In this document: piece after piece, positions 24,391 through 48,600 of the stretch
How the letters are laid out: each line of letters starts with the position of its first letter
Position numbering within the stretch: position 1 is the stretch's first letter
Assembly (NCBI GenBank): GCA_960531495.1
Contig: OY482849.1
Coordinates: forward strand, 36,722,290-36,786,289
Source: Zeus faber
Taxonomy: Eukaryota > Chordata > Actinopteri > Zeiformes > Zeidae
Length of the DNA: 64,000 nt
Reading direction: 5' to 3'
Program-made: the position numbers and the translations under genes
Notes under the pieces: model-generated
What the model was told of the DNA's origin: nothing
Databases searched by the model: none
What the model saw: the letters and a program-made list of their open reading frames with translations, nothing else

Positions 24391-26172
24391 CATGTGTTAC
24401 ACTGTGTGTGTTACACTGTGTGTGTGTTACACTGTGTGTTACACTGTGTGTGTGTGTGTGTTACACTGTGTGTTACCCTGTGTGTGTGTCACACTGTGTG
24501 TGTGTTACACTGTGTGTGTTACACTGTGTGTGTGTTACACTGTGTGTGTTACACTGTGTGTGTGTGTTACACTGCGTGTTACCCTGTGTGTGCGTTACAC
24601 TGTGTGTGTGTGTTACACTGTGTGTGTGTTACACTGCGTGTTACCCTGTGTGTGCGTTACACTGTGTGTGTTACACTGTGTGTGTTACACTGTGTGTGTT
24701 ACACTGTGTGTTACACTGTGTGTGTGTTACCCTGTGTGTGTGTTAGACTGTGTGTTACACTGTGTGTGTTACACTGTGTGTGTTACACTGTGTGTTACAC
24801 TGTGTGTGTGTTACCCTGTGTGTGTGTTAGACTGTGTGTTACACTGTGTGTGTTACACTGTGTTACCCTGTGTGTGTGGTACCCTGTGTGTGTGTTACAC
24901 TGTGTGTGTGTTACACTGTGTGTGTGTGTTACACTGTGTGTTACACTGTGTGTGGTATAGTGTGTGTTATAGTGTGTGTTATAGTGTGTGTAATAATGTG
25001 TGTTACCCTGTGTGTTATAGTGTGTGTTATAATGTGTGTTATAGTGTGTGTTATAGTGTGTGTAATAATGTGTGTTATGTGTGTTACACTGTGTGTGTTA
25101 CAGTGTGTGTTATAATGTGTGTTATAGTGCGTGTTATAGTGTGTGTTAAAATGTGTGTTATAGTGTGTGTTATAGTGTGTGTAATAATGTGTGTTATGTG
25201 TTAAAATGTGTGTTATAGTGTGTGTAATAATGTGTGTTACAGTGTGTGTTATAGTGTGTGTAATAATGTGTGTTATAGTGTATTATAGTGTGTGTTATAA
25301 TGTGTGTTATAGTGTGTGTTATAGTGTGTGTAATAATGTGTGTTATAGTGTGTGTTATTGTGTGTGTTATAGTGTGTGTAATAATTTGTGTTATAGTGTG
25401 TGTTATAGTGTCTGTTATAATGTGTGTTACAGTGTGTGTTATAATGTGTGTTATAGTGTCTGTTATAATGTGTGTTACAGTGTGTGTTCTAGTGTGTGTT
25501 ATAGTGTGTGTTATAGTGTCTGTTATAATGTGTGTTACAGTGTGTGTTATAGTGTGTGTTATAGTGTGTGTTATAATGTGTGTTATAATGTGTGTTATAG
25601 TGTGTGTTATAATGTGTGTTATAATGTGTGTTATAATGTGTGTTATAGTGTGTGTTATAATGTGTGTTATAGTGTGTATTATAGTGTGTGTTATAGTGTG
25701 TGTTATAATGTGTGTTACAGTGTGTGTTATAATGTGTGTTATAGTGTGTGTTATAGTGTCTGTTATAATGTGTGTTACAGTGTGTGTTCTAATGTGTGTT
25801 ATAGTGTGTGTTATAATGTGTGTTATAGTGTCTGTTATAATGTGTGTTACAGCGTGTGTTATAGTGTGTGTTATAGTGTGTGTTATAGTGTCTGTTATAA
25901 TGTGTGTTACAGTGTGTGTTATAGTGTGTGTTATAGTGTGTGTTATAATGTGTGTTATAATGTGTGTTATAATGTGTGTTATAGTGTGTGTTATAATGTG
26001 TGTTATAATGTGTGTTATAATGTGTGTTATAATGTGTGTTATAGTGTGTATTATAGTGTGTGTTATAGTGTGTGTTATAATGTGTGTTATAGTGTGTGTT
26101 ACACTGTGTGTGTTACAGTGTGTGTTATAATGTGTGTTTTACAGTGTGTGTTGCTGTGTGTGTGTGTGTGTG
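24391..26172. repeat. TGTGTTACAC/TGTGTTATAG satellite in stab1 intron
   Basis: 1.8 kb filling nearly the whole intron between the tail and transmembrane exons. Left part is TGTGTTACAC units (10-12 bp); from about 24,950 the unit becomes TGTGTTATAG, TGTGTTATAA and TGTGTTACAG. Open frames of up to 346 codons (CYSVCYNVC type) exist only because 10- and 12-bp units lack stops. Confidence 0.95.
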
Positions 26173-26182
26173 TTTGTCTCAC

Positions 26183-26332
26183 TGTGAAGCGCTGGAACAG
26201 GAAGTCCTTCCTACAGTGTGTGTTTGTGTAGTAACAGGAAGCCAGCAGCAGAACCAGCAGCAGCAACGAAACCAAGATGGCGGACACCACGCCGCTGAAG
26301 GTGGGCGGGGCTAGAGGGGCAGGGCTGTGCAC
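26183..26332 (-). CDS. stab1: stab1 exon: transmembrane segment
   Basis: 50 codons, phase 0 at both ends, acceptor ACCTCCAG preceded by a (TG)n tract, donor GTGAGA. A hydrophobic run rich in L, V and I (SGVVSAILVSLLLLVLLLAS) spans the membrane, followed by a basic/cysteine stretch (HCRK) on the cytoplasmic side. Confidence 0.9.
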
Positions 26333-26339
26333 CTGGAGG

Positions 26340-26340
26340 T

Positions 26341-26388
<48 letters not shown>

Positions 26389-26390
26389 AG
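26340..26390. repeat. (CA)n microsatellite at a splice acceptor
   Basis: On the transcribed strand this is (TG)n directly before the acceptor of the transmembrane exon. Confidence 0.9.
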
Positions 26391-26480
26391 TGTGAGGGGA
26401 CAGGTAGACTGACCGTCCACCATCATTCCTGGCGGCCATATTGGCTCCAGTCCTGCTCTGTGGCAGGACAGATGGTGTTT

Positions 26481-26567
26481 GGATCAACAGTTTTATTTTC
26501 ATCAGAGTGTGTGTCCAACGTTGGACACACACTCTGATGTTTTTAATGAAAATAAAACTGTTGATCC
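26481..26567. repeat. Near-perfect 87-bp palindrome
   Basis: GGATCAACAGTTTTATTTTC at 26,481 is mirrored at 26,548-26,567, and the centre GTGTGTGTCCAACG/TTGGACACACAC pairs too; only a short TTTTTA-side bulge breaks it. In stab1 pre-mRNA it would fold into a hairpin about 150 bases before the transmembrane exon. Confidence 0.8.
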
Positions 26568-26704
26568 TGGTCCTACCCACAATGCTTTGAGGGAGTCTTC
26601 TACCGACACAACAATGTTGATTCATTAAATTAAATATGGGCTACTTTTATCACTGACATAACTCATCACCGATTAATACTTGAATCTTCTAAAGTCAGGG
26701 CAAT

Positions 26705-27888
26705 GTCGTGGTGTTTTGGGGCATGTGGGGGTCTTCCTGGTCTCGTCAGGGCTCTGTGGTTTGGTGGGTGCCCGGCGACTGTGGGGACATCCGTGGCACT
26801 TAGTCCTGATCTGGTTACGCCTCGCCTATCCCTCCCAGTGCTCATACTCAGCAGATATACCACATGATAGGCCTAGAGCTTGCAGGATGGGTGGGGTGAG
26901 AGTTATGTGGGTGGAGATGTGGAGGGTGGCTGCCATCTTGCCCATCACGCTCCTGCCCGATGTGCTTCTCGTCCGTCCTGAAATTTGAATCCCACTCATA
27001 TTAGCTTAGAACACATACACTCGCACACCAATCTTACCCCGAACAACACTCCACCAGACCAGGGTCTGTGGGGCAGGAGGGGTGCGAGTGATTCGGGTTT
27101 GGCTTGCTTGAAGAACTCGCACCCTCACACACTGCAATTTTAACTGCAATTGCCAACAGCACACATTGAGCAGTGGGGCTTCCTGGGTTGGCGAGTCACT
27201 GTTGGGTTGGTGTCGGGCGTGGTTGGCCGGTGGGCCCCCTGCCGGCTAGGCTTGAGTCCGCGCAGCTTCCGCCTGGTGGCTGTGACTTGGCGAGGCTGCA
27301 GAGAACGCCGCCGGGTGCCTTCCGGGGCCCCTGGGGGGCTGCTTGCTGTTGTGGGTGTGGGTTGGGGTGCAGGGGGCGGCTGTGGGCCTTTCTCCTGCTG
27401 CGCGGCTTCTCTGCGGCTTGTACCCAAAGGGAGGTGGAAGGTCCCATATATCTGCCTGCCTGCTGGCGCCGGCGGGGGGCCTAACATTTGGGTGCCCTGT
27501 GCTGAGCACACTCTGGTACGTGGATGGACGCTCAGGGCTTGCGCCGGGTGGGGCGTCTGGTCAGCTGCGGTGGGACGAGCCTCGCCCTTTCGCGAGCCGT
27601 GGGTGGGCATGGGGGTCCCACTAGCTTGTTTGAAGGGCCGACGGTTCGGACGGGGTGTCGGTCTGTCAGCATGGGTTTGGCTCAGGGCCTTCCGGGACTG
27701 AGTTATCCTCCTCGAGGCCGGGCGTGGGGATTTCTCCGTGGTGTCTTCTGTGGCTGGAGGGTGGGGTGCTCGGGGCTTTCCTGCAGCCGTGGGGTGTCTA
27801 TGCAGCTTCCATGCTTCTGGGCCCTTACCAATGCTTGGAGGCGCCACGACATAATACCAGAACCAATTGGGATAAGTCCTGTACACTC
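26705..27888 (+). repeat. GC-rich dispersed repeat, copy A
   Basis: Matches 56,506-58,460 in order and orientation: CATGTGGGGGTC start, ATAGGCCTAG...TTGC and GGGTGGGGTG, CGAACAACACTCCACCAGAC, TTTTAACTGCAATTGCCAAC, CTTTCCTGCAGCCGTGGGG, and a GATAAGTCCTGTACAC end. About 660 bases of copy B are absent here. Multi-frame open reading reflects high GC and few stops. No protein domain, inverted ends or tail recognised. Confidence 0.7.
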
Positions 27889-28254
27889 ACCGGTGAACAC
27901 CTCAGACACCCCCACACACACCACCAACACGCACCCTCCTGGTTGCATTCCTCTACTTTTCTCCCTCACTGCCATAACTAAGACAGGAAGAGGCCACGTG
28001 AACAGTTGCTTTTCTAGTTTTCCTGGACTTAATTGACTTAAATTAACTTAAAACTTAATTAACTTAAGTATTGTGGATACATGTTTCTGTCCAATGTTTA
28101 TGTTTTTGTGTAAACTTTGTTTGGTTGGTGTTTTGGTGTTTAATTCTCTCACCCCCGGTGAATCTCCTCCTCTTGCAGTAGTGATTCGTTGTTTAAAGAC
28201 CCAAACATAATAAATAGTTGTCCAAAGGTTGGTGGTGGTTGTATCATATAAAGC

Positions 28255-28428
28255 TGTGCTCTGCTCCTCACAGGACAGAGTTATTGCAGCAGTTGTTGAT
28301 GATTAAAGATGATTAAAGAGTTTCATTACAGGTTGACAAGTTCAATTCCACTTGCAACTCACTCTGTCTTACATGCAACACAACAAATACTCTGTCTAGA
28401 ATGTCCAGTATGATGACAGCACGGGGCG
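28255..28428 (+). repeat. Dispersed repeat with one 28-mer unit
   Basis: Matches 51,785-52,147: TGCTCTGCTCCTCACAGGAC, GCAGCAGTTGTTGA, AAGAGTTTCATT, TACATGCAACRCARCAA, TCCAGTATGATGACAGC. Here the CTACATGCAACGCAGCAAGT-type unit is present about once; the other copy has it about eight times. Confidence 0.75.
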
Positions 28429-28440
28429 TGGAGCAGTTGT

Positions 28441-28484
28441 AATGGTACCCTCACCTTCCAGGAGGGCACGGCCAGCGGACCCTC
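28441..28484 (-). repeat. Partial duplicate of a stab1 exon's 3' end
   Basis: AATGGTACCCTCACC and GGCCAGCGGACCCTC recur 70 bases further on at 28,511-28,554, where they are the donor end of the stab1 exon at 28,525. The duplicate carries its own donor-like GGAAG|GTGAGG. Confidence 0.7.
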
Positions 28485-28524
28485 CTGGTAATAGCCCTGT
28501 TCACAGTAGTAATGGTACCCTCAC

Positions 28525-28629
28525 CTGCAGGGGGGGTGCGGCCAGCGGACCCTCGATCACGTGGACGATTCCATTCAGAGCCGGAATGTTCCATTCCACC
28601 AAAACCCTGCGGTTCACCAGCTTGGAGCT
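28525..28629 (-). CDS. stab1: stab1 exon: end of the last FAS1 domain
   Basis: 35 codons, phase 0 at both ends, acceptor TTTTCAG, donor GTGAGG. NGIVHVIEGPLAAPP is the FAS1 H-box and the short link to the membrane. The upstream intron is 13.2 kb, the largest in the window. Confidence 0.9.
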
Positions 28630-28694
28630 CTGAAAATATGATGTTTTTATAAAATCATGGTTATGTAAAATACGATGTTAATATGAAATATGAT
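28630..28694. repeat. AT-rich minisatellite, part 1
   Basis: AAATATGATGTTTTTATAA-type units; continues at 28,927 after the solo LTR. Confidence 0.7.
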
Positions 28695-28926
28695 TGTGGC
28701 AGTTTTGCCACCACATGCCATCCAAGTGGCATTTTCAGGGAACTCCGGCACAGAGACACAGACGGGGTTAATTGTATATAGGAGGCTAGCTGGAACAAGC
28801 CAGGAGCAGATGGAAAATGTCATGACACAGGGCTCCCTCCTGACTGAGTGTGTGGGCGGGGTTCTAAACCTGATGCCCAACCAACGAGCATCAGGTGTGG
28901 CTGCTCAAGCCACCCCATCCACTACA
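28695..28926 (-). mobile_element. Solo LTR, copy 3, 5-bp target duplication
   Basis: TGTGGCAG...CACTACA with exact ATGAT duplications at 28,690-28,694 and 28,927-28,931. Same family as 1,875 and 2,699. Inserted in the AT-rich minisatellite of the 13.2-kb stab1 intron. No internal region. Confidence 0.75.
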
Positions 28927-29400
28927 ATGATGTTTATGTAAAATATGATGATAATATAAAATATAATGTTTTTATAAAATATGATGATAATATAAAATGT
29001 TTATGTTTATGCAAGATATGATAATACAAAATAAGATCTTTATAAAATATGTTTATGTAAAATATCTTGATGCAAAATATGATAATATAAAATATGATCT
29101 TTATAAAAGATGTTAATGCAAAACATGATCTTTATAAAATATTATGTTTATGAAAAATATGTTTATGCAAAATATGATGATAATATAAGATATCTTTATA
29201 AAATATGATGTTTATGTAAAATATTATGATAAATAAAATATGATGTTTATGTAAAATATGATAATATAAAATATGTTTAAATAAAAGATGATGATCATAA
29301 ACATGATCTGTCTTTATAAAATATGATGTTTATATAAAATATGATGTTTGTAAAATATGATAATATAAATTATCATGTTTATATAAAATACAATGTTTAT
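28927..29400. repeat. AT-rich minisatellite, part 2
   Basis: Irregular AAAATATGATGTTTATGTA units, 15-25 bp, about 470 bases. Confidence 0.85.
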
Positions 29401-30124
29401 CGAACTCGCAGGAGGCCTTGAAAAACCTTCCAACCTTCCACAAAACAGATCTTGTCAAACTATTCGCTGCTGAGGACTAGAAGGTTCTGGGAGTGAGAGG
29501 TGCTTGAGGTTCAGGATCTTTGGACAGGAAGTGATTTCCTGTGAATTGTGAGCGAGGAGGAGAAAATAAAGATATGAGAGAGAGGACAGACAGACAGGAG
29601 AGAACAGAAAGGGCGACAGTATGTCGCCAAGGTCCCACTTGGAAGGAAGGTGGGTGGAAGGTGGCGTGGGCGTGGACCTGTTCATGTAGTCCAAAGTGAA
29701 ATGGGTGTTAGCTTCCTTACTCGTTAGTTCATTTCTTCACAGAAAATGTTTACATTTGGCTCCTCGCTTAGCTGACCTTTCCTCTAGCGCCACCATCAGG
29801 CCTTTTCATTTCCATTTCCAATTTTACAGCTGCTTCTTTTCTAGTTGGTATGTATGCTTCGTTCAAAAAATCTGGTGCTGATTTTACTATTTTGTTTGTT
29901 TTTTGTTAATGTTTATTTTAATTGAAGAGGTATATTGTGTATTTTTAAGTTATATGTATTTAAAGTTATTCATTAATGTTTCATTAATTTTCCATTCAAG
30001 AATTTTACCATTCAAATTACATTTAGATTGTAAAAGATGGCATTGCACCTGAACTTTTTTTGACTAAAAAGGAGATCAGACTGAAAATGTATCTTAATAA
30101 GTGTGTAACGACTTTAACATTCTT
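29401..30124. other. Unrecognised intronic DNA
   Basis: No exon, repeat family or open frame could be supported. The right half is AT-rich. Confidence 0.4.
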
Positions 30125-30330
30125 CCTTGGGTGATTGTGCAAAGAACAACCCTGCACTGTTGCTTTACAGCAAGAAGGTCCTGGGTTCGATTCCCGCCTG
30201 GCATTGTGCTCCGGCGGGTTATCTCCCGATGAGGGTCCTTTCTGTGTGGAGTTTGCATGTTCTCCCTGTGCTCACATGGGGAAACATGTAGAACAACTCT
30301 GGCAGTGGCTAGTTGGGCAGGAGCCGAACT
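30125..30330 (+). mobile_element. SINE-like repeat with tRNA-type B box
   Basis: Contains GTTGCTTTACAGCAAGAAGG, GGGTTCGATTCCC (B box) and TGTGTGGAGTTTGCATGTTC, a combination common in teleost SINEs. A related fragment is at 55,363-55,420. Confidence 0.6.
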
Positions 30331-30614
30331 AGAATGGAGAAGTAAGACAACTCCTTCCCTCCTCTAGTCTGGGGGTCCACCTTGGGCAAGTGATAGTACT
30401 CCCCCTGCCTTGGGTCTATCCTCGAACTCGACACTAGTCCCGAGTTGGTGTCGGCTAATTCCGCACCCTCTCATCGCATCTGTGTTACCGGAAGTACAGA
30501 TTCATATCGTGAATAAGTATTGTTTATTCGTGTATAAGTAAGATTTATTTTTTGGCTTATCAGTTCATCCTCTTGCATTTCAAAACTTCCTTCTGTGTGC
30601 AGTTAAAAGGCTTA

Positions 30615-30735
30615 TTGACTTGTACGATTTTTCTCCTGGCATCCCAAAGATTTATTTTAAGTATTAGTGTATGTTCTTGCATTCCAAAGATTCATTCACA
30701 TTTGTGTTGTCAGATTCTTGCATTCCCAAAATGGA
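30615..30735 (+). repeat. Diverged dispersed repeat, copy 2
   Basis: Inverted relative to 1,432-1,530; shares GGCATCCCAAAGAT, TTGCATTCC and GATTCATTCA. Confidence 0.5.
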
Positions 30736-30889
30736 TTTACGTGTGTGATTTTGTGTTGTTTAATTTCATGATGTATTTGACAAACACAAACATAATACAG
30801 AGATTGAAAGAGACGGGGTGCAAGATTGCGATTTTAGAATAGGGTTTTGAACGCCTGACAACGAGGAGGAACAAATTAACTAGTCCATT

Positions 30890-32416
30890 GTAAATGTAAA
30901 TGTAAATGTCCATTGAAAATTCCCCAACCAATGGGAAACCACTCATGAACCCTTCGACCAATGGCCGTCAAATGATCTCACTTCCGGTTCCATCCCTTCG
31001 GAGGAAATATAAACCCCGGAAAATGACTGCTTGTCAGTTCCTTTGCTCCCAAGGATCTCTCTCCCGCGGCCATGAAGTTTATCTGAAGGAACTTGATGTT
31101 ACCTGGCGCTGTGGCACGCCGTCTGTCTGTTCCTTGAAACCAAGTTTTCTGAACTGCGACGCAGCCACGTCGCAGAGACCTTCAGGTAAACATCGTATCT
31201 TGCAAGCTTCTCTTCCTTAACCTTCCGTTTGGAAGTTTTGGAACTGAGTAACTTTCCTGCCTTGAACGACACCACGACACGCCAAGCTGGAATAACTCCT
31301 GCAGAGCACACTCGCCACGCCTCGCTGTTCCAGGACCCGACAATACGAAAAGATCCCTGACCGTTCCGGCCAGAGAGTCTGTGGGAACCCCGAGCTGATC
31401 CGGTAAGAAAGGCAGACGACTCATTGGAGTCTAAACGGCGATCCAGACAAAGAGCCGGAACTCCTGAAGAGCTTGGCCAAGGCGTGTTGGTCTGGCACGG
31501 CCATAATGTTGTGGAAAGTTACTGAGTGAATGCGGCCAAAGATGACTGCAGACATATTGATATTGTGAGCGAGGGATCGGAGCGTGACCTGTTATCGCCC
31601 AATACTACTACCTAGAGATAAGTGTCTGGTAAACAGTACTATTAATCAGATGAATTGAAGAACTGAAGAGATGATACAAAGAGCATGAAAGGTTCTTTTT
31701 CTTTCAGTCATGTTCTCTGCAGAGACACACTCAGCTCTTTTTTATAAGAAAGGATCTTGAATTAAAAGACCTCTTCTCCAGGGTGATTTTTTTCCACCAC
31801 AATAACATCTCCAATTTATTCTTCAGTTTAGTACGTAGTTGCGCCTTTGAGTGCATTTACATACAATCTCTCTCTTTCACTCTCTCCCTCGTTCCATAGC
31901 AACCAACATTTCATTTCCCAGATGTGGGTTTGTGTATTAACCTTCTTAAACTTGTTTTTTCGACCTCAACCTTTTTTACCATACTATTGAATTCTGTTAT
32001 AATATATAAACGTTCATTGTTTGATTAAAAACTAGCCGTGTATTTATCCAATATCATGTGAGAATTTCTGAAGGTAAAATAACCTCTTCCCTGAGAGCTG
32101 AGAACCTTTGTTGCCGCCTATGCAACCAGAAACAAAACAACCTTTTTCCAGGGTTTAGCAAAGACCTGGTTCAGCAGCAACAACAACAACAACAAAAACC
32201 TACTGGAGCTGATGTTTGTCATCATCTCTGCCCTGAAGGTCCCTCAGGTGTCAAGCCTGGATTTACCATGGTGTCCTCACAGTGGTGGCCTTTTAGTTTT
32301 TTTAGTGTCACAGAAGCCTGGTATCCAGCCATCATGCTTAGAAGTGGCAGCATCAGGGGCCTGTGTGCTTGTATGAGCCTCAAGGTGACGGAGGTGGTGG
32401 AGTATCGGCGGGCTGT
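30890..32416 (+). other. Unclassified stretch with promoter-like start
   Basis: Two CCAAT boxes (AACCAATGGG near 30,929 and GACCAATGGC near 30,958) are followed by AAATATAAACC near 31,005, an order seen in LTR U3 regions. No LTR ends, target duplications or coding frame were found up to 32,416. It may be an old LTR or an unknown promoter. Confidence 0.3.
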
Positions 32417-32936
32417 TATAGTGTGTGTTGCAATGTGTGTTACAGTGTGTTACAGTGTGTTACAGTGTGTGTTAGTGTGTAACAGTGTGTTACAGTGTGT
32501 GTTCCAGTGTGTTCCAGTGTGCATTACAGTGTGCGTTACAGTGTGTGTTACAGTGTGTTACAGTGTGTGTTACAGTGTGCATTACAGTGTGTGTTACAGT
32601 GTGTTAAAGAGTGCGTTACAGAGTGTGTAACAGTGTGTTACAGTTTGTTACAGCGTGTGTTACAGTGTGTGTACCGGTGTGTGTTACAGTGTGTTACAGT
32701 ATGTTACAGTGTATGTTACAATGTGTGTTACAGTGTGTTACAGTGTGTTACAGTGTGTGTTACAGTGTGTTACAGTTTGTTACAGCGTGTGTTACAGTGT
32801 GTGTTACAGTGTGTTACAGTGTGTTACAGAGTGTGTTACAGTGTGTTACAGTGTGCATTACAGTGTGTGTTACAGTGTGTGTTACAGTTTGTTACAGCGT
32901 GTGTTACAGTGTGTTACAGTGTGTTACAGTGTGTGT
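32417..32936. repeat. TGTGTTACAG satellite, block in 13.2-kb intron
   Basis: 10-bp TGTGTTACAG and 12-bp TGTGTGTTACAG units. The array resumes at 33,147, 36,199, 37,458 and 40,938 after insertions. Confidence 0.95.
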
Positions 32937-32937
32937 T

Positions 32938-33146
32938 GATGGGGATGGTAGCTCAGGAGGTAGAGCTGGTGGTCTAGTCATCTAAAGGTTGCTGGTTGGA
33001 TCCCAGGCTCCTCCTGCTAGCATGCTGTAGTGTCCTTGAGCAAGACACTTAACCCCTAATTGCTCCTGATGGCTGCTTCCGTCGGTGTTTGAACAATTGT
33101 AAGTCGCTTTGGATAAAAGCGTCTGATCAATGACTAAATGTAAATG
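32938..33146 (+). mobile_element. tRNA-derived SINE, copy 2
   Basis: A box GTAGCTCAGGAGGTAGAGC at about 32,949, B box GGTTGGATCCC at about 32,994, SINE body CTTGAGCAAGACACTTAACC, end TAAATGTAAATG. Satellite on both sides; TTACAGTGTG on each side could be the target duplication. Confidence 0.85.
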
Positions 33147-33172
33147 TTACAGTGTGTTACAGTATATGTTAC

Positions 33173-36100
33173 AGATTCAAGATTCAAGATTTTTATTTGT
33201 CACATACATATACATACTTTCATACATATATGCAGTGAAATGTAATGCAACGCACCCGGTGATAGCACACAATATGTCCTAGGAAAAAATAAAAAATAAA
33301 ATAAAATAAAAAGTAGAAAATTCCTTTCTAATAGACCGACTAACTGACTCCTAAAACGTAATACAGTAAGTGGAATACTTATAGAATAAGATAATAATAT
33401 ATAGAATAAAATACAATAAAAATAAATTGAAATAAAATGGAATAGATAGAAGGAATATGGCTATGTATATACAGATATGTGCATTTAAAGTGGCATGTGA
33501 ATTAAAGTGGCGTTTGAATGTGAATAGTGTGAGGTAGTGTTTGCGATAATACAGCACAGTATACAACAGTACGGCGCAGCAATACGGCATCATGAACAAC
33601 CCTGAACAGTGATACAGTATGCGGTACAGTATGCTACATACAGTACAGTAGGTAGTGGAGCCTAGTGCATGGCTCAGTTAGGACCCCTGGTGAGGTCAGC
33701 ATTGACAGTTCTAATGGCTTGAGGGAAGAAACTCCGTCTCAGTCTCTCTGTTCTCGCTGCGTGACTGCGGAGGCGCTTGCCTGACCGCAGCAGCTGAAAC
33801 AGTCCGTTGTTGGGGTGATGAGGATCCTTCATGATCCTACGGGCTCTGCTACTACACCTCCTGGTGTATAACTCCTGCAAGGGGGGGAGGGTAGTTCCAG
33901 TGGTACGTTCAGCTGAACGCACCACCCTCTGCAGGGCCCGCCTGTCCTGGGCAGTACAGTTCCCAAACCAGGCAGTGATGTTGCCTGACAGGATGCTCTC
34001 CACTGCTCCAGAGTAGAAGGACTTGAGGATCCTCACCGAGACCCGGAATTTCCTCAGCTGCCTGAGGTGGTAGAGACGCTGCCTCGCCTTTCTCACCAGA
34101 GTGTCTGTGTGAACAGTCCATGTTAAGTCCTCTGTGATGTGGACTCCCAGATATCTGAAGCTGCTCACCCTATCGACAGAAGTCCCATTAATCCACAACG
34201 GCGCGTGCGTCCTCGATTGTGATCCACGCCTAAAGTCCACAATCAGCTCCTTGGTTTTGCTGACGTTCAGGTGTAGGCTGTTGTCCTGGCACCAGAGTGA
34301 CAGGTCAGCCACCTCCTCGCGGTAGGCCTTCTCATCGCAGTCGGTGATCAGGCCCACGACCACGGTGTCGTCAGCAAACTTGATGATGGTGTTGGAGCTG
34401 GACCTGGCCACACAGTCATGTGTGTACAGGGAGTACAGTAGGGGGCTGAGGACGCAGCCCTGGGGGGATCCTGTATTCAGGGTGAGGGAGCTTGACATGT
34501 ACTTCCCCACCTTGACCACCTGGGGGCGGCCTGTGAGGAAGTCCAGGATCCAGGTGCACAGCGGACCATTCAATCCGAGCTCCATCAGCTTGACAGCCAG
34601 TCTGGTGGGGACTATGGTGTTGAAAGCTGAACTATAATCAATGAACAGCATTCTCACATAGGCCCCCTTCTGGCCATCCAGGTGCGTGAGCGTGGTGTGC
34701 AGTACCTGAGAGACCGCGTCATCCGTGGATCTGTTCTGCCGGTACGCGAACTGCAACGGGTCCAAGGTGCGGGGGAGGGAGGCGCAGATGTAATCCTTAA
34801 TCAGCCTCTCCAAACACTTCATGACCACCGAGGTGAGGGCCACCGGACGGTAGTCATTCAGGCAGGTTGGAGAGGCGATCTTCAGGACAGGAACAACGGT
34901 GGACCTCTTGAAACAGGATGGGACCACTGATTCAGCCAGGGAGATGTTGAATATTGTGGTGAACACCGGAGCTAGCTGGTTAGCACAGGTCTTCAGTACT
35001 CGCCCAGATATGCCGTCTGGGCCGCAGCTTTCCTGGTGTTCACCCGCATCAAAGCCCTCCTGACCTCGTGCACGGACACTGAGAGTGCGCGCTCATCCCC
35101 AGCGGTGTAACTACAATTAGCCGGCGAGCTAGCGGTGTTGCTGCCAGACTCGAACCGCGCATAAAAGGAGTTCAGTTGGTTGGCCAGGAAGGCGTCCACA
35201 CTCGTGGCTGGGGAGGAGCTGCTCTTGTAGTTAGTTATTGTTCGCAGCCCCTCCCACAAGCGTCTTGTGTCCCCCCGCTCCATCTGCAGCTCCACGGTGT
35301 CTCTGTACGTCCGTTTAGCGTCCCTCACCGCCCTCCGCAGATTGTACGACGCCGCTTTGTAATTGTCCATGTTACCAGATACAAGTCCGTCGTTGTAAGC
35401 GGCCGTGCGAGCATTCAGAGCGCAGCGGATGGATTTATCAACCTATGGTTTCTGGTTTGGAAATATCCGAACTTTCACCGTGGGAACGATTTCATCCGCG
35501 AGCGTAGCCACGAAACTTACTACAGCCTCCGTAAACTCGCTGATGTCACTTGAACTTGTTTGGAACATGTCCCAGTCTACGTCAGTCAGAGCGTCCTGAA
35601 GCACAGCCTCTGATTGGTCCGTCCACCGCTTCACCTCCCTCGTCATCACTAGATCCGATCAGAGGCCTGTAAACAGGAAGCAGCGAGATCGCGGCGTGAT
35701 CTGATTTCCCGAAAGCAGGGAGCGACACGGGCTTGTGTCTGTTCTTGTAAGGAGTGTAGCAATGGTCCAGAGTTCTGTCTCCCCTGGTGGCACACGTCAT
35801 GTGTTGGTGGAAATTCGGCAGAACTTTTTTCAGGTTGGCCCTGTTAAAGTCCCCAGTCACCACCACAGCCGCGTCGGGATGTCTGTTCTGAAATCCGCAC
35901 AACACATCGTACAGAACCGACAGAGCTGCGTCGGTGTCCGCTTGCGGTGGGATATAAACGGCTGTAATGATGACCGTGCTGAATTCCCGGGGGAGATAAA
36001 ATGGACGGCATAGGATGGTCAGCTGTTCCAGGTTCGGCGAGCAGGAGTGGGAGAGGAATTTGGTGTTGTTGGCGTTACACCAGCGGTTGTTTACCATTAG

Positions 36101-37445: not shown

Positions 37446-37457
37446 ACTCTATATGTG

Positions 37458-37899: not shown

Positions 37900-40800
37900 C
37901 CCGACCAATCTATTGCATGACGACGCCAAAGATGCCGCAGAGACACTTACGCCCCTCGGGGCCTGCGCTGTCAATCGCTTCAATCAACATTGAAGGCTTC
38001 TCCAGATGCAAGGCAGACATACTAGTGACAGTGATGAAACGCTTCGACATAGTTTACATGCAGGAAACCCACATCGGCCCTGCTCAACAGAGACCCGCCC
38101 TGCCTGGAATGAAGCTGGTGGCAGAGATCCGTCACACACAGTACGGATCAGCCGTATTCAACTGACCAAACCTCACGATTGAAGAGGTCTGCACCGACAC
38201 CACCGAAGGGCAAATGGAAACCATCACAGTTGCCCTCCCAAATGTCTCTGTCACATCAGTGTACAAACCCCCCAAAAGCCCATTCTCCCATACCGAACTG
38301 CTAGATAGATGCAAGAGGAAATTCCAGATCAGCATTGGAGACTTCAATGCCCATAGCACATCGTGGGGCTATAAAGAGAACAACCAAGATGGAGATGCAG
38401 TCGAAACCTGGCTTGAGTCGAAACACCTGACCCTGATCCATGACGCCAAACTGCCAAAATCCTTCCATAGCGCCAGATGGAAACAAGGATAAAACCCAGA
38501 CCTTGTCTGTGTGAGCAGCGAGCTAGCATCCAGAGCAGTGAAAGAGGTCCTGGACCCCATCCCCCACTCACAACACCGACCTATCACTATAACCATCCGA
38601 TCCATTCTCAAAGCAACAACCATCCCCTTCCGTAGAAGTTTCAACCTGCGGAAAGCCGACTGGCTGTCGTACCAACAGGAGATCGAAGACTCAATCCCCA
38701 GCATACCACCACACCCCAACAGCTATACCACGTTTACAGACCTGCTGAAAAGGTCAGCCAGACAACATATTCCAAGAGGATGCCAGACCGAGTACATCCC
38801 CAGGTTGTCAGAAACATCTAGTGACCTACTCCAGGCCTACCATACGGCATACCGCGAAGACCCTTTCTCCTCCACCACCACGGCACTCGGAGAGATCCTA
38901 CTAAACAACGTCGGGGAAGATCGCAAGCAAGTCTGGTCGGAGCTGAAACACCAACATGACCAACAACAGCAGGAAGGCGTGGGCCACGATTCGCCGCCTT
39001 GGTGCAGACCATACCACACCACCCACACTTACAACAGTCACAGCAAACTCAGTCGCAGCACAGCTGGTGTTAAACGGGTGCAGCCAAACTCGCCGCAGAC
39101 CCACAGGAGAATACCGCCGGACAGCTGTACCAGACCACCCACAACCAGCAAGTGCCCTTACCAAGCCCTTCGATCCAGAAGAACTTGAAGCAGCACTGTG
39201 CTCGCTGAAACCCGGGAAAGCAGCAGGAATCGATGATGTACTGGCGGAAATGATACAGCACCTGGGACCTAAAGCAAAGACCTGGCTCCTACAAATGCTG
39301 AACTCATGCATGGCTAAGAAAACCATCCCACCCGTATGGAGAAAAGCCAAGACTGTCGCTATCCCCAAACCTGGAAAGGACCCATCATCACCAAAGAGCT
39401 ACAGACCGATTTCCCTCCTCTGCATAACCTACAAGCTCTATGAGAGGCTATTACTCCAACGCCTAACACCACTTATAGACTCCAAGCTCACTAAAGATCA
39501 AGCCGGTTTCCGTCCTGGCCGCTCCTGTGCTGGGCAGCTACTGAACCTCACCCAACACATTGAGGATGGTTTTGAGTGCAAACTCATCACCGGAGCAGCT
39601 TTCATAGACCTCACCGCTGCCTATGACATTGTCCAGCACCGTGCCATGATCAGGAAACTTTTGGACATGACTGGCGACCTCGACCTCGACCTCTGCCAAG
39701 TCATAAAAAGTCTTCTCAACAACCGGCGCTTCTTCGTTCCACTAAACGACAAGAAGAGCAAATGGAATGCCCAAAAGAATGGCCTAACACAAGGCAGTGT
39801 ACTGGTCCCTCTCCTCTTAAACATCTACACCAACGACCAACCACTCCCCCCACAATGCCGCCGCTTCATCTAAGCTGATGACCTCTGCATCACCACCCAA
39901 CAAGAGAGCTTCCATAAAATCGAACCCGTCCTGGAAAGTGCCCTCCAAGAGATGTCCACCTACTACAATAACAACCACTTGAAACCCAACCCATCAAAAA
40001 CCCAGCTATGCAGTTTCCATCTAAAAAACCGAGATACAGGAAAAGAACTGAGCATCTCATGGGATGGCCACAAACTCTTGAACCATCCCCATCCTGTCTA
40101 CCTTGAAGTCACACTCGACAGGACACTCTCTTTCAAAACCCACCTGCAGAACACCAAAGCCAAGGTCAACACCCGCAATAACATCCTGCGCAAACTAGTC
40201 AACTCAAAGTGGGGCGCTGATCCACCAACCATCCGCGCTACGGCCCTAGCCCTGTGCCTCTCCACAGCTGAGTATGCATGTTCAAGCTGGAGCCGCTCCA
40301 ACCGCACCAAACTGGTGGACACGGCCCTCAACGACACCTGCCGCATCATCACGGGCTGCATAAAGACAACGCCAGCCCCGTGCCTCTATGCACTAGCCGG
40401 CATTGCCCCCCCTCACATCAGACGGTCCATCGTCGCCCAAGATGAGCGGAAAGCACAGGAGTCTGACATGAGGCGCCCCTGTACGGACACACAGCACCCC
40501 CATCCAGACTGAAATCCAGAGCCAGCTTCCTGCATACAGTCCCCCCTCTCCAGCCCACCAAAGAAACGCCACGGAACAACATCTGGAGCGTTGAATGGCA
40601 CCAACTCAACACCCCAGCCCAAGAATGGATGGAGAGAGGAATAACACCAACCAAATGCCTCGCCAGCGGACACGACCTCCCATGGCCGACCTGGAAGACC
40701 CTCAACAGACTGCGGGTGGAGCAGAGGAGGCGCAAAGCACTGTTGAAGACATGGAACTACCACACAGAGGACACGTGTGGCTGTGGAGCAGTACAGACAA

Positions 40801-40937
40801 TGTCCCACCTGCTGGACGTGACGACGCCCCCCCAGTGCAGCCCCCAGGACCTGGCTGAACCGACCCCACCAGCTGTGCCCTGCGCTAGATACTGGCAGAA
40901 TGACATCGAAGATTGCAAAGGACTCGAAGAAGAAGAC
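37900..40937 (+). mobile_element. Jockey/I-group LINE, single copy
   Basis: A LINE unrelated to the other family: endonuclease, RT, and a C-terminal region with a cysteine/histidine cluster (EDTCGCGAVQTMSHLL). It ends GAAGAAGAAG, a tail common to this type, directly joined to TGTGTTACAG satellite at 40,938. Clade inferred from RT style only. Confidence 0.8.
37917..40920 (+). pseudogene. Broken LINE ORF2 (endonuclease, RT)
   Basis: Endonuclease pieces: SIASINIEGFSRCKADIL, DIVYMQETH, ISIGDFNAHS, with stops at about 38,163 and 38,490. RT from about 38,956: LKPGKAAGIDDV, KSYRPISLLC, DQAGFRPGRSC, AAFIDLTAAYD, LTQGSVLVPLLLN. The catalytic YADD box reads stop-ADD: TAC/TAT became TAA at 39,871-39,873. 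The frame reopens at 39,952-40,512 and, shifted, at 40,629-40,930. Not functional. Confidence 0.85.
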
Positions 40938-41698
40938 AGTGTGTGTTACAGTGTGTTACAGTGTGTGTTACAGTGTGTGTTACAGTGTGTGTTACTTTGT
41001 GTTAAAGTGTGTGTTACAGTATGTGTTACAGTGTGTTACAGTGTGTGTTGCAGTGTGTTACAGTGTGTGTTACAGTGTGTTACAGTGTGTTACAGTGTGT
41101 GTTATAGTGTGTGTTACAGTGTGTTACAGTGTGTGTTACAATGTGTTACAGTGTGTTACAGTGTGTGTTACAGTGTGTTACAGTGTGTGTTATAGTGTGT
41201 GTTACAGTGTGTTACAGTGTGTGTTGCAGTGTGTTACAGTGTGTGTTACAGTGTGTTACAGTGTGTTACAGTGTGTGTTATAGTGTGTGTTACAGTGTGT
41301 TACAGTGTGTGTTACAATGTGTTACAGTGTGTTACAGTGTGTGTTACAGTGTGTTACAGTGTGTGTTATAGTGTGTGTTACAGTGTGTTACAGTGTGTGT
41401 TGCAGTGTGTTACAGTGTGTGTTACAGTGTGTGTTACAGTGTGTTACAGTGTGTGTTACAGTGTGTGTTACAGTGTGTGTTACTTTGTGTTAAACTGTGT
41501 GTTACAGTATGTGTTACAGTATGTGTTACAGTGTGTTACAGTGTGTGTTACAGTGTGTGTTACAGTGTGTGTTATAGTGTGTGTTACAGTGTGTGTTACA
41601 ATGTGTTACAGTGTGTGTTACAGTGTGTTACAGTATATGTTACAGAGTGTGTTACAGTGTGTGTTACAGTGTGTTATAGTGTGTTACAGTGTGTGTTA

Positions 41699-41701
<3 letters not shown>
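40938..41701. repeat. TGTGTTACAG satellite, block
   Basis: Contains an internal direct duplication: 41,040-41,210 and 41,215-41,385 are almost the same. Confidence 0.95.

Positions 41702-41780
<79 letters not shown>
41702..41780. repeat. (GT)n microsatellite beside a stab1 donor
   Basis: About 39 GT units. On the transcribed strand it is (CA)n beginning some 10 bases after the donor of the exon at 41,789. Confidence 0.95.
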
Positions 41781-41785
<5 letters not shown>

Positions 41786-41788
41786 CAC

Positions 41789-41917
41789 CTGGTTGTGTGT
41801 GACTGTCAGCTCGGCTCCCAACCAGCTGGTGATTACTTCCTCTTGCTCCCGTTCTTCGTCGAGACGGAGGCTGTGATTGGCCGAAACGTGGAGCTCCACC
41901 TCCCTCCCAGAGAGAGT
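41789..41917 (-). CDS. stab1: stab1 exon: middle of the last FAS1 domain
   Basis: 43 codons, phase 0 at both ends, acceptor GTGTTAG, donor GTGCAC. Begins TLSGREVELHVSANHS, matching the STAB1 motif TLSG-x-x-LELH; ends at GAELTVTHNQ. Confidence 0.9.
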
Positions 41918-42296
41918 CTAACACACACACACATATACACACACATATAAGAATGACTGAACCCGCATGACTTCCTGCACAGCAGTATGACTTCCTGTCA
42001 GTGTACTATCCAGTACATACTGCTGCAGATTGTTTTATGATTTGAAATTTGCTTTGATATTCAGAAATATTGTTTTATGAAATAAATATTCTTCAGGGAC
42101 GGTATTTACTACGGGGTGAGGTACCCCCCCCCAAGACTACAGTGGACGATTCCATTGCACAGAGGTGGAGGTGGAGGTGTGTGGACACATGCTGCTCCCC
42201 AGTGGCACTGGGGAGGCCTTAGACCACGCCCCCTTTTTGGTGACTTCAATGATTAAAATATTCTGTTTCCTGGGAAATAACCCTGGAGCAAGGTTG
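41918..42296. other. Intron start region without feature
   Basis: Non-repetitive intronic sequence 5' of the exon at 41,789 on the transcribed strand. Nothing recognised. Confidence 0.4.
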
Positions 42297-45200
42297 TAAC
42301 AGTGTGTTACAGTGTGTTACAGCGTGTGTTACAGTGTGTTACAGTGTGTGTTACAGCGTGTGTTACAGCGTGTGTTACAGTGTGTTACAGCGTGTGTTAC
42401 AGTGTGTGTTACAGGGTGTGTTACCAGTGTGTGTTACCAGCGTGTGTTACAGTGTGTTACAGTGTGTGTTACAGTGTGTGTTACAGTGTGTTACAGCGTG
42501 TGTTACAGTGTGTTACAGTGTGTGTTACAGTGTGTTACAGCGTGTGTTACAGTGTGTTACAGCGTGTGTTACAGTGTGTGTTACAGGGTGTGTTACCAGC
42601 GTGTGTTACCAGCGTGTGTTACAGTGTGTGTTACAGTGTGTTACAGCGTGTGTTACAGTGTGTTACAGCGTGTGTTACAGTGTGTGTTACAGGGTGTGTT
42701 ACCAGCGTGTGTTACCAGCGTGTGTTACAGTGTGTGTTACAGTGTGTTAGTGTGTGTTACAGTGTGTGTTACAGTGTGTTACAGCGTGTGTTACAGTGTG
42801 TTACAGTGTGTTACAGTGTGTTAGTGTGTGTTACAGTGTGTGTTACAGTGTGTGTTACAGTGTGTTACAGTGTGTGCTACAGTGTGTTACAGTGTGTGTT
42901 ACAGTGTGTTACAGTGTGTTACAGCGTGTGTTACAGTGTGTTACAGCGTGTGTTACAGTGTGTTACAGTGTGTGTTACAGTGTGTTACAGCGTGTGTTAC
43001 AGTGTGTTACAGCGTGTGTTACAGTGTGTTACAGTGTGTTAGTGTGTGTTACAGTGTGTGTTACAGTGTGTGTTACAGTGTGTTACAGTGTGTGTTACAG
43101 TGTGTTACAGTGTGTTATAGTGTGTGTTACAGGGTGTGTTACAACGTGTTACAGTGTGTGTTACAGTGTGTTACAGTGTGTGTAACAGTGTGTTAGTGTG
43201 TGTTACAGTGTGTGTTACAGTGTGTTACAGCGTGTGTTACAGTGTGTTACAGTGTGTTACAGTGTGTTAGTGTGTGTTACAGTGTGTGTTACAGTGTGTG
43301 TTACAGTGTGTTACAGTGTGTGCTACAGTGTGTTACAGTGTGTGTTACAGTGTGTTACAGTGTGTTACAGCGTGTGTTACAGTGTGTTACAGCGTGTGTT
43401 ACAGTGTGTTACAGTGTGTGTTACAGTGTGTTACAGCGTGTGTTACAGTGTGTTACAGCGTGTGTTACAGTGTGTTACAGTGTGTTAGTGTGTGTTACAG
43501 TGTGTGTTACAGTGTGTGTTACAGTGTGTTACAGTGTGTGTTACAGTGTGTGTTACAGTGTGTGTTACAGTGTGTTACAGTGTGTTATAGTGTGTGTTAC
43601 AGGGTGTGTTACAACGTGTTACAGTGTGTGTTACAGTGTGTTACAGCGTGTGTTACAGCGTGTGTTACAGTGTGTTATAGTGTGTGTTACAGTGTGTGTT
43701 ACAGTGTGTTACAGTGTGTCACAGTGTGTGTTACAGTGTGTTACAGTGTGCCACAGTGTGTGTTGCAGTGTGTGTTACAGTGTGTGTTACATTGTGTTAC
43801 AGTGTGTGTTACAGTGTGTTAGTGTGTGTTACAGTGTGTGTTACAGTGTGTTACAGCGTGTGTTACAGTGTGTGCTACAGTGTGTGTTATAGTGTGTGTT
43901 ACAACGTGTTACAGTGTGTGTTACAGTGTGTCACAGCGTGTGTTACAGTGTATGTTACAGGGTGTGTTACAACGTGTTACAGTGTGTGTTACAGTGTGTT
44001 ACAGTGTGTGTTACAGCGTGTGTTACAGTGTGTTACAGTGTGTGTTACAGTGTGTTACAGTGTGTTACAGTGTGTGCTACAGTGTGTTACAGTGTGTGTT
44101 ACAGTGTGTGTTACAGTGTGTTACAATGTGTGTTACAGTGTGTTACAGTGTATTACAGTGTGTGTTACAGTGTATTACAGTGTGTGTTACAGTGTGTTAC
44201 AGTGTGTTACAGTGTGTGTTACAGGGTGTGTTACAATGTGTTACAGTGTGTGTTACAGCGTGTGTTACAGCGTGTGTTACAGTGTGTTACAGTGTGTGTT
44301 ACAGTGTGTTACAGTGTGTCACAGTGTGTGTTACAGTGTGTTACAGTGTGTGTTACAGTGTGTTACAGTGTGTTACAGCGTGTGTTACAGTGTGTTACAG
44401 CGTGTGTTACAGTGTGTTACAGTGTGTGTTACAGTGTGTTACAGCGTGTGTTACAGTGTGTTACAGCGTGTGTTACAGTGTGTTACAGTGTGTTAGTGTG
44501 TGTTACAGTGTGTGTTACAGTGTGTGTTACAGTGTGTTACAGTGTGTGTTACAGTGTGTTACAGTGTGTTATAGTGTGTGTTACAGGGTGTGTTACAACG
44601 TGTTACAGTGTGTGTTACAGTGTGTTACAGTGTGTGTAACAGTGTGTTAGTGTGTGTTACAGTGTGTGTTACAGTGTGTTACAGCGTGTGTTACAGTGTG
44701 TTACAGTGTGTTACAGTGTGTTAGTGTGTGTTACAGTGTGTGTTACAGTGTGTTACAGTGTGTGCTACAGTGTGTTACAGTGTGTGTTACAGTGTGTTAC
44801 AGTGTGTTACAGCGTGTGTTACAGTGTGTTACAGTGTGTGTTACAGTGTGTTACAGCGTGTGTTACAGTGTGTTACAGCGTGTGTTACAGTGTGTTACAG
44901 TGTGTTAGTGTGTGTTACAGTGTGTGTTACAGTGTGTGTTACAGTGTGTTACAGTGTGTGTTACAGTGTGTGTTACAGTGTGTGTTACAGTGTGTTACAG
45001 TGTGTTATAGTGTGTGTTACAGGGTGTGTTACAACGTGTTACAGTGTGTGTTACAGTGTGTTACAGCGTGTGTTACAGCGTGTGTTACAGTGTGTTATAG
45101 TGTGTGTTACAGTGTGTGTTACAGTGTGTTACAGTGTGTCACAGTGTGTGTTACAGTGTGTTACAGTGTGCCACAGTGTGTGTTGCAGTGTGTGTTACAG

Positions 45201-48200
45201 TGTGTGTTACATTGTGTTACAGTGTGTGTTACAGTGTGTTAGTGTGTGTTACAGTGTGTTACAGCGTGTGTTACAGTGTGTGCTACAGTGTGTGTTATAG
45301 TGTGTGTTACAACGTGTTACAGTGTGTGTTACAGTGTGTCACAGCGTGTGTTACAGTGTATGTTACAGGGTGTGTTACAACGTGTTACAGTGTGTGTTAC
45401 AGTGTGTTACAGTGTGTGTTACAACGTGTTACAGTGTGTGTTACAGCGTGTGTTACAGTGTGTTACAGTGTGTGTTACAGTGTGTTACAGTGTGTTACAG
45501 TGTGTGCTACAGTGTGTTACAGTGTGTGTTACAGTGTGTTACAGTGTGTTACAGTGTGTTGCAGCGTGTGTTACAGTGTGCGTTACAGTGTGTTAGTGTG
45601 TGTTACAGTGTGTGTTACAGTGTGTGTTACAGTGTGTTACAGCGTGTGTTACAGTGTGTGTTACAGTGTGTTACAGTGTGTTATAGTGTGTGTTACAGGG
45701 TGTGTTACAACGTGTTACAGTGTGTGTTACAGTGTGTTACAGTGTGTGTTACAGCGTGTGTTACAGTGTGTTACAGTGTGTGTTACAGTGTGTTACAGTG
45801 TGTCACAGTGTGTGTTACAGTGTGTTACAGTGTGTCACAGTGTGTGTTGCAGTGTGTGTTACAGTGTGTGCTACAGTGTGTTACAGTGTGTGTTACAGTG
45901 TGTGTTACAGTGTGTTACAGTGTGTGTTACAGTGTGTTACAGCGTGTGTTACAGTGTGTGTTACAGTGTGTTATAGCGTGTGTTACAGTGTGTGCTACAG
46001 TGTGTGTTATAGTGTGTGTTACAACGTGTTACAGTGTGTGTTACAGTGTGTCACAGCGTGTGTTACAGTGTATGTTACAGTGTGTGTTACAACGTGTTAC
46101 AGTGTGTGTTACAGTGTGTTACAGTGTGTGTTACAGCGTGTGTTACAGTGTGTTACAGTGTGTGTTACAGTGTGTGTTACAGTGTGTCACAGTGTGTGCT
46201 ACAGTGTGTTACAGTGTGTTACAGTGTGTGTTACAGTGTGTTAGTGTGTGTTACAGTGTGTGTTACAGTGTGTGTTACAGTGTGTTACAGTGTGTGTTAC
46301 AGTCTGTGTTACAGTGTGTTACAGCGTGTGTTACAGTGTGTGTTACAGTGTGTGTTACAACGTGTTACTGTGTGTTACAGTGTGTGTGACAGTGTGTGTT
46401 ACAGTGTGTGTGACAGTGCGTTACAGTGTGCGTTACAATGTGTGTTACAGTGTGTTACAGTGTGTTACAATGTGTGTTACAGTGTGTGTTACAGTGTGTT
46501 ACAGTGTGTGTTACAGTGTGTTACAGTGTGGTACCGTGTGTGTTACAGTGTGTTACAGTGTGTTACAGTGTATGTTACAGTGTGTGTTACAGTGTGTGTT
46601 ACAGTGTGGTACCATGTGTTACAGTGTGTGTTACAGTGTGGTACCGTGTGTGTTACACTGTGTTATAGTGTGTGTTACAGTGTGGTACTGTGTGTGTTAG
46701 TGTGTTACAGTGTGTTACAGTGCATTACAGTGTGCGTTACAGTGTGTGTTACAGTGTGTTACAGTGTGTGCTAGAGTGTGTTACAGTGTGTTACAGTGTG
46801 TGTTACAGTGTGTTACAATGTGTGTTACAGTGTGTTACAGTGTATTACAGTGTGTGTTACAGTGTATTACAGTGTGTGTTACAGTGTGTTACAGTGTGTT
46901 ACAGTGTGTGTTACAGGGTGTGTTACAATGTGTTACAGTGTGTGTTACAGCGTGTGTTACAGCGTGTGTTACAGTGTGTTACAGTGTGTGTTACAGTGTG
47001 TTACAGTGTGTCACAGTGTGTGTTACAGTGTGTTACAGTGTGTGTTACAGTGTGGTACCGTGTGTTACAGTGTGTTACAGTGTTTTACAGTGTATGTTAC
47101 AGTGTGTGTTACAGTGTGTGTTACAGTGTGGTACTGTGTGTTACAGTGTGTGTTAGAGTGTGTTACAGTGTGTTACAGTGTGCTACAGTGTGCGTTACAA
47201 TGTGTGTTACAGTGTGTTACAGTGTGTTACAATGTGTGTTACAGTGTGTGTTACATTGTGTTACAGTGTGTGTTACAGTGTGTTACAGTGTGTTACAATG
47301 TGTGTTACAGTGTGTGTTACAGTGTGTTACAGTGTGTGTTACAGTGTGGTACCGTGTGTTACAGTGTGTGTTCCAGTGTGTTCCAGTTTGTTACAGTGTA
47401 TGTTACAGTGTGTGTTACAGTGTGTGTTACAGTGTCTGTTACAGTGTTTGTTACAGAGTGTTACAATGTGTGTTACAGTGTGTTACAGTGTGTGTTTCAG
47501 TGTGTTAAAGCGTGTGTTACAGTGTGTGTTACAGTGTGTGTTACAGTGTGTTACAGTGTGTGTTACAGTGTGTGTTACAGTGTGTGTTACAACGTGTTAC
47601 TGTGTGTTACAGTGTGTGTTACAGTGTGTTACAGTGTGTGTTACAGTGTGTTACAGTGTGTTACAGTGTGTGTTACAGTGTGTTACAGTGTGCGTTACAA
47701 TGTGTGTTACAGTGTGTTACAGTGTGTTACAATGCTTGTTACAGTGTGTGTTACATTGTGTTACAGTGTGTGTTAGTGTGTTACAGTGTGTTACAATGTG
47801 TGTTACAGTGTGTGTTACAGTGTGTTACAGTGTGTGTTACATTGTGTTACAGTGTGTGTTACAGTGTGTTACAGTGTGTGTTCCAGTGTGTGTTACAGTG
47901 TGTTCCAGTGTGTGTTACAGTGTGTTACAGTGTGTTACAATGTGTGTTACAGTGTGGTACCGTGTGTGTTACAGTGTGTTACAGCGTGTGTTACAGTGTG
48001 TGTTACAGTGTGTTTTACAGTGTGTTACAGTGTGTGTTACAGTGTATTACAGTGTGTGTTACAGTGTATTACAGTGTGTGTTACAGTGTGTTACAGTGTG
48101 GTACCATGTGTTACAGTGTGTGTTACAGTGTGTGTTACAGTGTGTGTTACAGTGTGTTACAGTGTGTGTTACAGTGTGTGTTACAGTGTTGTACCGTGTG

Positions 48201-48599
48201 TTACAGTGTGTGTTACAGTGTGTTACAGTGTGTTACAGTGTGTGTTACAGTGTGCGTTACAATGTGTGTTACAGTGTGTTACAGTGTGTTACAATGTGTG
48301 TTACAGTGTGTTACAGCGTGTGTTACAGTGTGTGTTACAGTGTGTTACAGTGTGTGTTACAATGTGTGTTACAGTGTGTGTTACAATGTGTGTTACAGTG
48401 TGTGTTACTATGTGTGTTACAGTGTGTTACAGTGTGCTACAGTGTGTGTTACAGTTTGTGTTACAATGTGTGTTAAAGTGTGTTACAGTGTGTTACAGTG
48501 TGCTACAGTGTGTGTTACAGTTTGTGTTACAATGTGTGTTAAAGTGTGTTACAGTGTGTTACAGTGTGTGTTACAGTGTGTGTTACAATGTGTGTGTGT

Positions 48600-48600
<1 letters not shown>
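42297..48600. repeat. 6.3-kb TGTGTTACAG satellite filling a stab1 intron
   Basis: The largest array: 10-bp TGTGTTACAG and 12-bp TGTGTGTTACAG units with recurrent variants (CGTG, TAGTG, GGTACCGTG, TGTTACAATG). Variant strings recur at fixed offsets, about 446 and about 1,420 bases, so larger blocks were duplicated. Open frames up to 438 codons (LQCV, CYSV, VTVC repeats) appear in all three plus frames at once and are artefacts. Confidence 0.97.

Follow-up and report, generated by a model that had tools for sequence, protein, structure and literature searches.

The stabilin-like gene and its repeat-filled introns

The DNA analysed here, referred to as the window, is the stretch C5:36,722,290-36,786,289 of the Zeus faber genome assembly (64,000 nucleotides, none of them N), which lies on a contig, C5, of 37,983,157 bp. 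Between 24.3 and 64 kb the window carries a stabilin-like gene on the minus strand, in which Fasciclin, EGF and Xlink domains were detected and which we take to be stab1 rather than stab2. Three of its introns, designated I1 (24,377-26,182), I2 (28,630-41,788) and I3 (41,918-48,700), hold tandem arrays of a 10/12-bp unit, TGTGTTACAG/TGTGTGTTACAG, or of cousins of it, approximately 1.2 Mb from the end of C5; the same unit also occurs in introns of neighbouring genes.

The gene was modelled by hand from reading frames and splice sites, giving 19 exons and 18 introns; the model is uncertain for the short exons Ed and Ee and for exons possibly missed within introns of 2.3 and 3.9 kb, and no last coding exon was identified. 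All 18 modelled introns had GT..AG ends and the exons had open frames, in agreement with the initial annotation, which had described the exons between the arrays as having intact splice sites. I2 and I3 are neighbouring introns flanking the 129-bp exon Eq (41,789-41,917), with exon Ep (48,701-48,820) preceding I3 and exon Er (28,525-28,629) lying 3' of I2 in the transcript; all three are on the minus strand and were assigned from frames, splice sites and a Fasciclin domain (E 5.6e-7) obtained when the exons were joined across the I3 and I2 arrays. The intact exons on both sides imply that splicing through the arrays is tolerated, as had been proposed. There were no Rfam matches at gathering scores in 24,200-50,000.

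Composition and structure of the arrays

The unit is repeated head-to-tail and fits the size of a minisatellite unit (approximately 7-100 bp), and the arrays, sitting between exons of one gene, constitute an intronic minisatellite. Coverage was measured as the bases contained in exact TGTGTTACAG/TGTGTGTTACAG units, with 10 dinucleotide shuffles of the I3 array as the control. Exact units covered 4,398 of the 6,783 bases of I3, compared with 22-122 in the shuffles, and 1,808 of the 13,159 bases of I2. The short tandem unit is thus real, as the arrays called by Tandem Repeats Finder (TRF) also indicate. Tandem repeats made up 95% of I3, 99% of I1 and 28% of I2. The claim that the named unit accounts for most of I1 did not hold, as only 120 of its 1,806 bases were in exact units (930 with one mismatch allowed); I1 consists of cousin units, TGTGTTACACTG at 24,393-24,945 and TGTGTGTTATAG/TTATAA at 24,946-26,163. 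No exact units were found in 1-24,283, in 26,333-28,524 or in 48,821-62,349.

The I3 array (42,302-48,595, plus strand) extends over approximately 6.3 kb, for which TRF reported about 568 copies of the 12-mer, and contains large block duplications; at the donor it gives way to a (TG)n tract at 48,589-48,695 (plus), which reads as (CA)n in the RNA. The array of I2 sums to 2,805 bases, close to the 3 kb first estimated, in TRF segments at 32,414-32,937, 36,197-37,789 and 40,936-41,708. It is a single array broken by a short interspersed element (SINE), an L2-like element, a duplicated 105-bp spacer and a retrotransposon lacking long terminal repeats (non-LTR). Its first segment (32,414-32,937, plus) is followed by the SINE (32,938-33,146, plus; another copy, 96.8% identical, lies at 10,652-10,836) and by the L2-like non-LTR element (33,173-36,199, minus; copy at 11,826-13,520, 94%). 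The second segment (36,199-37,337, plus) is separated from the third (37,449-37,789, plus) by the first copy of the spacer (37,338-37,448), a non-satellite sequence of approximately 105 bp without assigned strand. The second spacer copy (37,790-37,896) leads into the non-LTR retrotransposon (37,897-40,935, plus), which has interrupted frames and an RVT_1 domain, and beyond it lie the last segment (40,936-41,708, plus) and a (GT)n tract at the I2 donor (41,701-41,785, plus), again (CA)n in the RNA. The arrays of I2 and I3 are approximately 590 bp apart, so that the spread to separate introns first described stands in so far as the unit is shared between introns, with the qualification that these two are adjacent and that the I2 array is split by insertions.

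The array of cousin units in I1 (24,377-26,182) is likewise on the plus strand, opposite to the gene, giving CA-rich RNA. The common orientation noted initially applies to I1, I2 and I3; it does not extend to a related array at 62,527-64,000, which is inverted (minus strand), lies beside an acceptor and runs past the end of the window. On the plus strand none of its bases were in exact units; the minus strand had 90 (372 when one mismatch was allowed). A 31-mer of this type gave no matches genome-wide, a result which concerns that exact arrangement only and not the array type, since the window itself contains an array of this type.

Donor proximity and direction

In stab1 the repeats begin 8 nt (I1), 3 nt (I2) and 5 nt (I3) from the donor. 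At the donor end all three arrays have a pure (TG)n tract of 18 bp or more, and at the distal end none has. Over the 18 introns, CA tracts were seen at four donors and GT tracts at none; at acceptors there were three GT tracts and one CA tract. This placement, CA after donors and GT before acceptors, suggests that an array takes its direction from the seed tract, and the 62.5-kb cousin array, at its acceptor, is in the GT sense. The array of I1 ends only 16 nt short of the acceptor, and the branch point therefore probably lies within the last repeat unit, to judge from this spacing.

Local growth and kinship of the arrays

Exact self-matches of 468, 422 and 367 bp were found within I3, at offsets of 1,420, 1,454 and 446; the longest compares with a maximum of 133 bp in 200 monomer shuffles. 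Long self-matches also occurred in arrays on C1 (622 bp), C9 (456 bp), C5 at 36.591 Mb (278 bp) and 36.216 Mb (275 bp), and in I2 segment I2d (235 bp). Block duplication is therefore the main growth mode of the long arrays; in 12 of the 18 array segments the self-match was below 140 bp. The initial statement that the unit had spread rather than one locus growing was too strong in its second half: the unit did spread, and the long arrays grew locally, as the 468-bp match in I3 attests. As a separate observation, the array at L013 contains, at 7,881-8,240, three copies of a 46-48-bp 5' piece of the SINE, as if carried by block duplication.

I2, with 50 distinct monomer types, and I3, with 52, have 14 non-consensus monomers in common. 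The best monomer runs between I2 and I3 were within 40 shuffles for all four I2 segments, with I2a equalling the maximum; inside I2, the run shared by I2b and I2d exceeded its shuffles. A second comparison, with monomer frequencies taken from all arrays and 15 shuffles, placed one of the four I2-I3 pairs (I2a-I3, 20.7 vs 16.8 bits) above the shuffle maximum, together with I2b against C5 36.591 Mb (20.4 vs 18.0), C9 0.77 Mb (18.0 vs 16.9) and C5 36.218 Mb (11.5 vs 9.3), and I3 against C5 36.219 Mb (16.2 vs 14.8); most array pairs were not above their shuffles. By their variant spectra the six stab1 segments were more alike than random sets of six out of 18 (P = 0.023, or 0.025 without I1), a value inflated by the fact that four of the six come from a single array; the three SLMAP-like segments also grouped (0.73-0.93). 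Kinship among the stab1 segments is weak.

Distribution of the unit in the genome and in neighbouring genes

The 803-Mb assembly (153 contigs) was searched with an exact 30-mer, (TGTGTTACAG)x3. At least 65 exact matches were obtained (35 plus, 30 minus), and the reversed-sequence control gave none in the genome; the 30-mer had no matches in viral contigs. Of these matches, 23 lay within the window and 12 elsewhere on C5 (36.217 to 36.956 Mb); the remaining 30 were on C1, C9, C10, C14, C15 and C21. They group into 12 places, five of them inside one 740-kb stretch of C5. The unit is present at several separate places in the genome and is not spread evenly over it; with 12 places in 803 Mb, the equal density in random DNA considered at the outset was not found. 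Nine of the 12 places were no more than 2 Mb from a contig end (four of seven when counted by chromosome), where the 2-Mb limit was set after the data had been seen and the five on C5 are not independent of one another.

Three of the C5 arrays outside the window lie in other genes. The array at 36.215-36.222 Mb is between SLMAP-like exons (PDB 6akm, E 6e-11, with FHA upstream, E 6.7e-9). The next, at 36.307 Mb, comes after an exon matching filamin (2j3s, E 1.4e-12), and the exons neighbouring it match Filamin (E 2e-11 and 4.6e-10). A 4-kb intron that divides a LIM motif into two parts is filled by the array at 36.591 Mb (LIM match E 0.0027, which is below Pfam's curated cut-off). All three genes are on the plus strand with the arrays turned accordingly, so that, as in stab1, their RNA is CA-rich, and introns of four neighbouring genes have the unit in common. 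The distance from donor to array was 22 nt in the SLMAP-like gene (with CA before the array) and 17 nt in the LIM-domain gene; in the filamin-like gene a CA variant begins at the donor and the unit approximately 380 nt further on. A candidate exon also precedes the array at C9 0.77 Mb, at 34 nt and with the same layout. Among the eight introns with a recognised donor (stab1 I1, I2 and I3, the SLMAP-like, filamin-like and LIM genes, the C9 candidate and C15), the RNA carried the CA-rich strand in seven and the GT sense in one, C15. The gene-wide seeding proposed in the initial annotation is not what was found: the unit is in introns of the neighbouring genes and missing from most introns of stab1, and the spread is therefore regional.

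Origin and spread of the unit

We consider it somewhat probable (roughly 0.55) that a GT/CA minisatellite spread regionally between donor-side CA tracts and then grew locally. A (CA)n tract often comes directly after the donor in introns of this region, and in one such tract a mutated unit, CTGTAACACA(CA) in the RNA sense, would have arisen. From there it would have passed into the CA tracts of nearby introns and genes, the most likely route being ectopic exchange with these tracts as homology; the tract would have acted as a landing pad in what may formerly have been short introns. Copies would have grown in place by block duplication, several arrays taking up all of the intron except the room required for the donor, the branch point and the acceptor, and transposons would later have broken some of them. 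This explanation needs no function for the arrays.

Several results weigh against it. No direct trace of exchange was seen, and segment I2b is as near in its variant spectrum to C5 36.591 Mb (0.39) and C9 0.77 Mb (0.38) as to I3 (0.35). The array on C15, near an ion-channel exon (Ion_trans, E 6.4e-7), follows its donor in the GT sense. Six of the 12 places (C5 36.956 Mb, C9 0.91 Mb, C10, C14, C21 and C1) had no recognised donor beside the array in the 110 nt inspected per side; donors are therefore not required. Within stab1, repeats lay no more than 14 nt from the donor in 13 of 18 introns, against 10.8 under the null (P = 0.11), so that a general anchoring of tandem repeats at donors, not being above coverage, was rejected. 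Finally, the genome-wide counts cover pure 10-mer runs only and are lower bounds, as arrays made mostly of the 12-mer escape them.

The alternative that survives best, although still unlikely, is that a genome rich in CA tracts repeatedly makes similar CA-derived minisatellites, intron by intron, with no exchange between genes. TRF repeats were present in 16 of the 18 modelled introns and made up at least half of 12, I1 and the 62.5-kb array carry cousin units, and the runs common to arrays were mostly within shuffles, all as expected from independent origin; however, it fits poorly with the recurrence of the same 10/12-bp unit, several differences away from (TG)n, with the five of 12 places within 740 kb, and with the non-consensus monomers common to I2 and I3.

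A less probable account invokes random arrival followed by selection, whereby only arrays that spare the splice signals and lack decoy acceptors survive, resulting in a common direction. Decoy sites were scored with a splice-site model built from 19 acceptors and 19 donors only, the threshold being the lower quartile of the real sites. In the I3 array none of 23 AG sites was acceptor-like as found, compared with 276 of 516 when the array was flipped, and repeats reached the last 8 nt before the acceptor in 4 of 18 introns rather than the 10.6 expected, both in favour of selection. The same array, however, has 412 of 540 donor-like sites as found vs 18 of 1,860 flipped, and in the 62.5-kb array 96 of 169 sites are acceptor-like; selection alone therefore does not explain the direction. 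Also against selection, AG avoidance over all intronic repeats was weak (10 of 16 introns, and 8 of 24 arrays of the left flank) and was rejected.

A more ambitious form of regional spread is regarded as unlikely. It would have the donor CA tracts act as landing pads by way of which the unit travels between introns of neighbouring subterminal genes, nearly always oriented with transcription, such that the transcripts of unrelated genes have one CA-rich array in common next to the 5' splice site and the last unit of I1 supplies the branch point.

It is very unlikely that the unit originated from, or was carried by, a SINE tail (..AAATGTAAATG) with TTACAG behind it. In the window the 3' ends of SINEs do lead into TTACAG, and at L010 and L016 they do so closely, but insertion of a SINE into a TTACAG array would look identical and most arrays have no SINE at their edge. 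Separately, at L016 on C9 two opposed SINEs (4,147-4,348 and 5,577-5,782) bound an array of the same 10/12-bp unit. Inflation or misplacement of the arrays by the assembler is the least credible explanation, since, despite N gaps in or beside the arrays at several other places (L012, L015, L016, L019 and L020), the window has no N, the units are diverse and transposons lie inside an array.

Other repeats of the gene and window

Repeats account for 18,910 of the 35,939 intron bases of the gene, and for 7,055 of 14,191 when I1, I2 and I3 are left out; the left flank (1-24,286) is 23% tandem repeat. Several stab1 introns have private repeat units, and those at 61,285-61,811, 58,883-59,218 and 50,060-50,321 are largely private minisatellites starting at or near the donor. 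A (TCTG)n tract lies near the donors of five introns, in one sense throughout, with CAGA near none; the 10/12-bp unit is therefore not alone in being shared between introns of this gene in one orientation. A 28-bp unit is repeated approximately eight times at 51,893-52,120 with 99% identity, which looks recent, and a 71-bp unit approximately 37 times at 52,436-55,352. In the left flank, a 1.5-kb direct repeat pair (14,725-16,198 and 22,682-24,173; 93.7% identity) contains transposon-like open frames, presumably akin to Tc1.

Comparison with known systems and significance

Intronic minisatellites are a known kind of feature, and it is the sharing among neighbouring genes that is the notable part here. 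Among the papers listed in literature searches there was no report of the unit or of satellites in stabilin introns. The growth hormone gene of Sparus aurata has minisatellites in introns 1 and 3 (PMC3045353). In both cases two introns of a single fish gene contain tandem repeats; the stab1 unit is also in the introns of neighbouring genes.

AC-GT introns of fish and lamprey, a class treated in a review (PMC7404189), were reportedly described by Lin and others (Genome Research, 2016). In part stab1 resembles this class, having CA at 4 of 18 donors and GT at 3 of 18 acceptors, with both in EbEc and I3; it differs in that I1 and I2 have no GT acceptor. A 154-bp intron at 61,962-62,115, with (CA)n at its donor and a GT-rich acceptor, has the AC-GT layout. 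Bridging of this type was not apparent over 16 introns, in which an intron's own donor and acceptor ends paired no better than swapped ends (P = 0.68); the ends of I3 and EbEc pair strongly, yet rank 3 or 4 of 16. RNA bridging between intron ends was rejected on duplex z-scores of -1.5 to 1.1 in seven introns, a weak test as dinucleotide shuffles keep the CA/GT runs.

Codfish genomes have very dense tandem repeats in and outside genes, mostly di- and trinucleotide (PMC5894186). The density in stab1 is similarly very high, and the unit differs in being 10/12 bp. The brook charr MH class II beta gene is said to have a cis-acting minisatellite (Croisetiere and others, 2010); both unit and gene differ from those in stab1. 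CA repeats are bound by hnRNP L (PMC3823766), and the hundreds of CA-rich units in these introns could bind it.

One tandem repeat can here be traced across introns of neighbouring genes, and its orientation, the history of insertions and its local growth can be read from the sequence. The case makes testable the movement of repeats between introns via microsatellite tracts beside splice sites, as well as how splicing handles introns that are almost wholly repeat.

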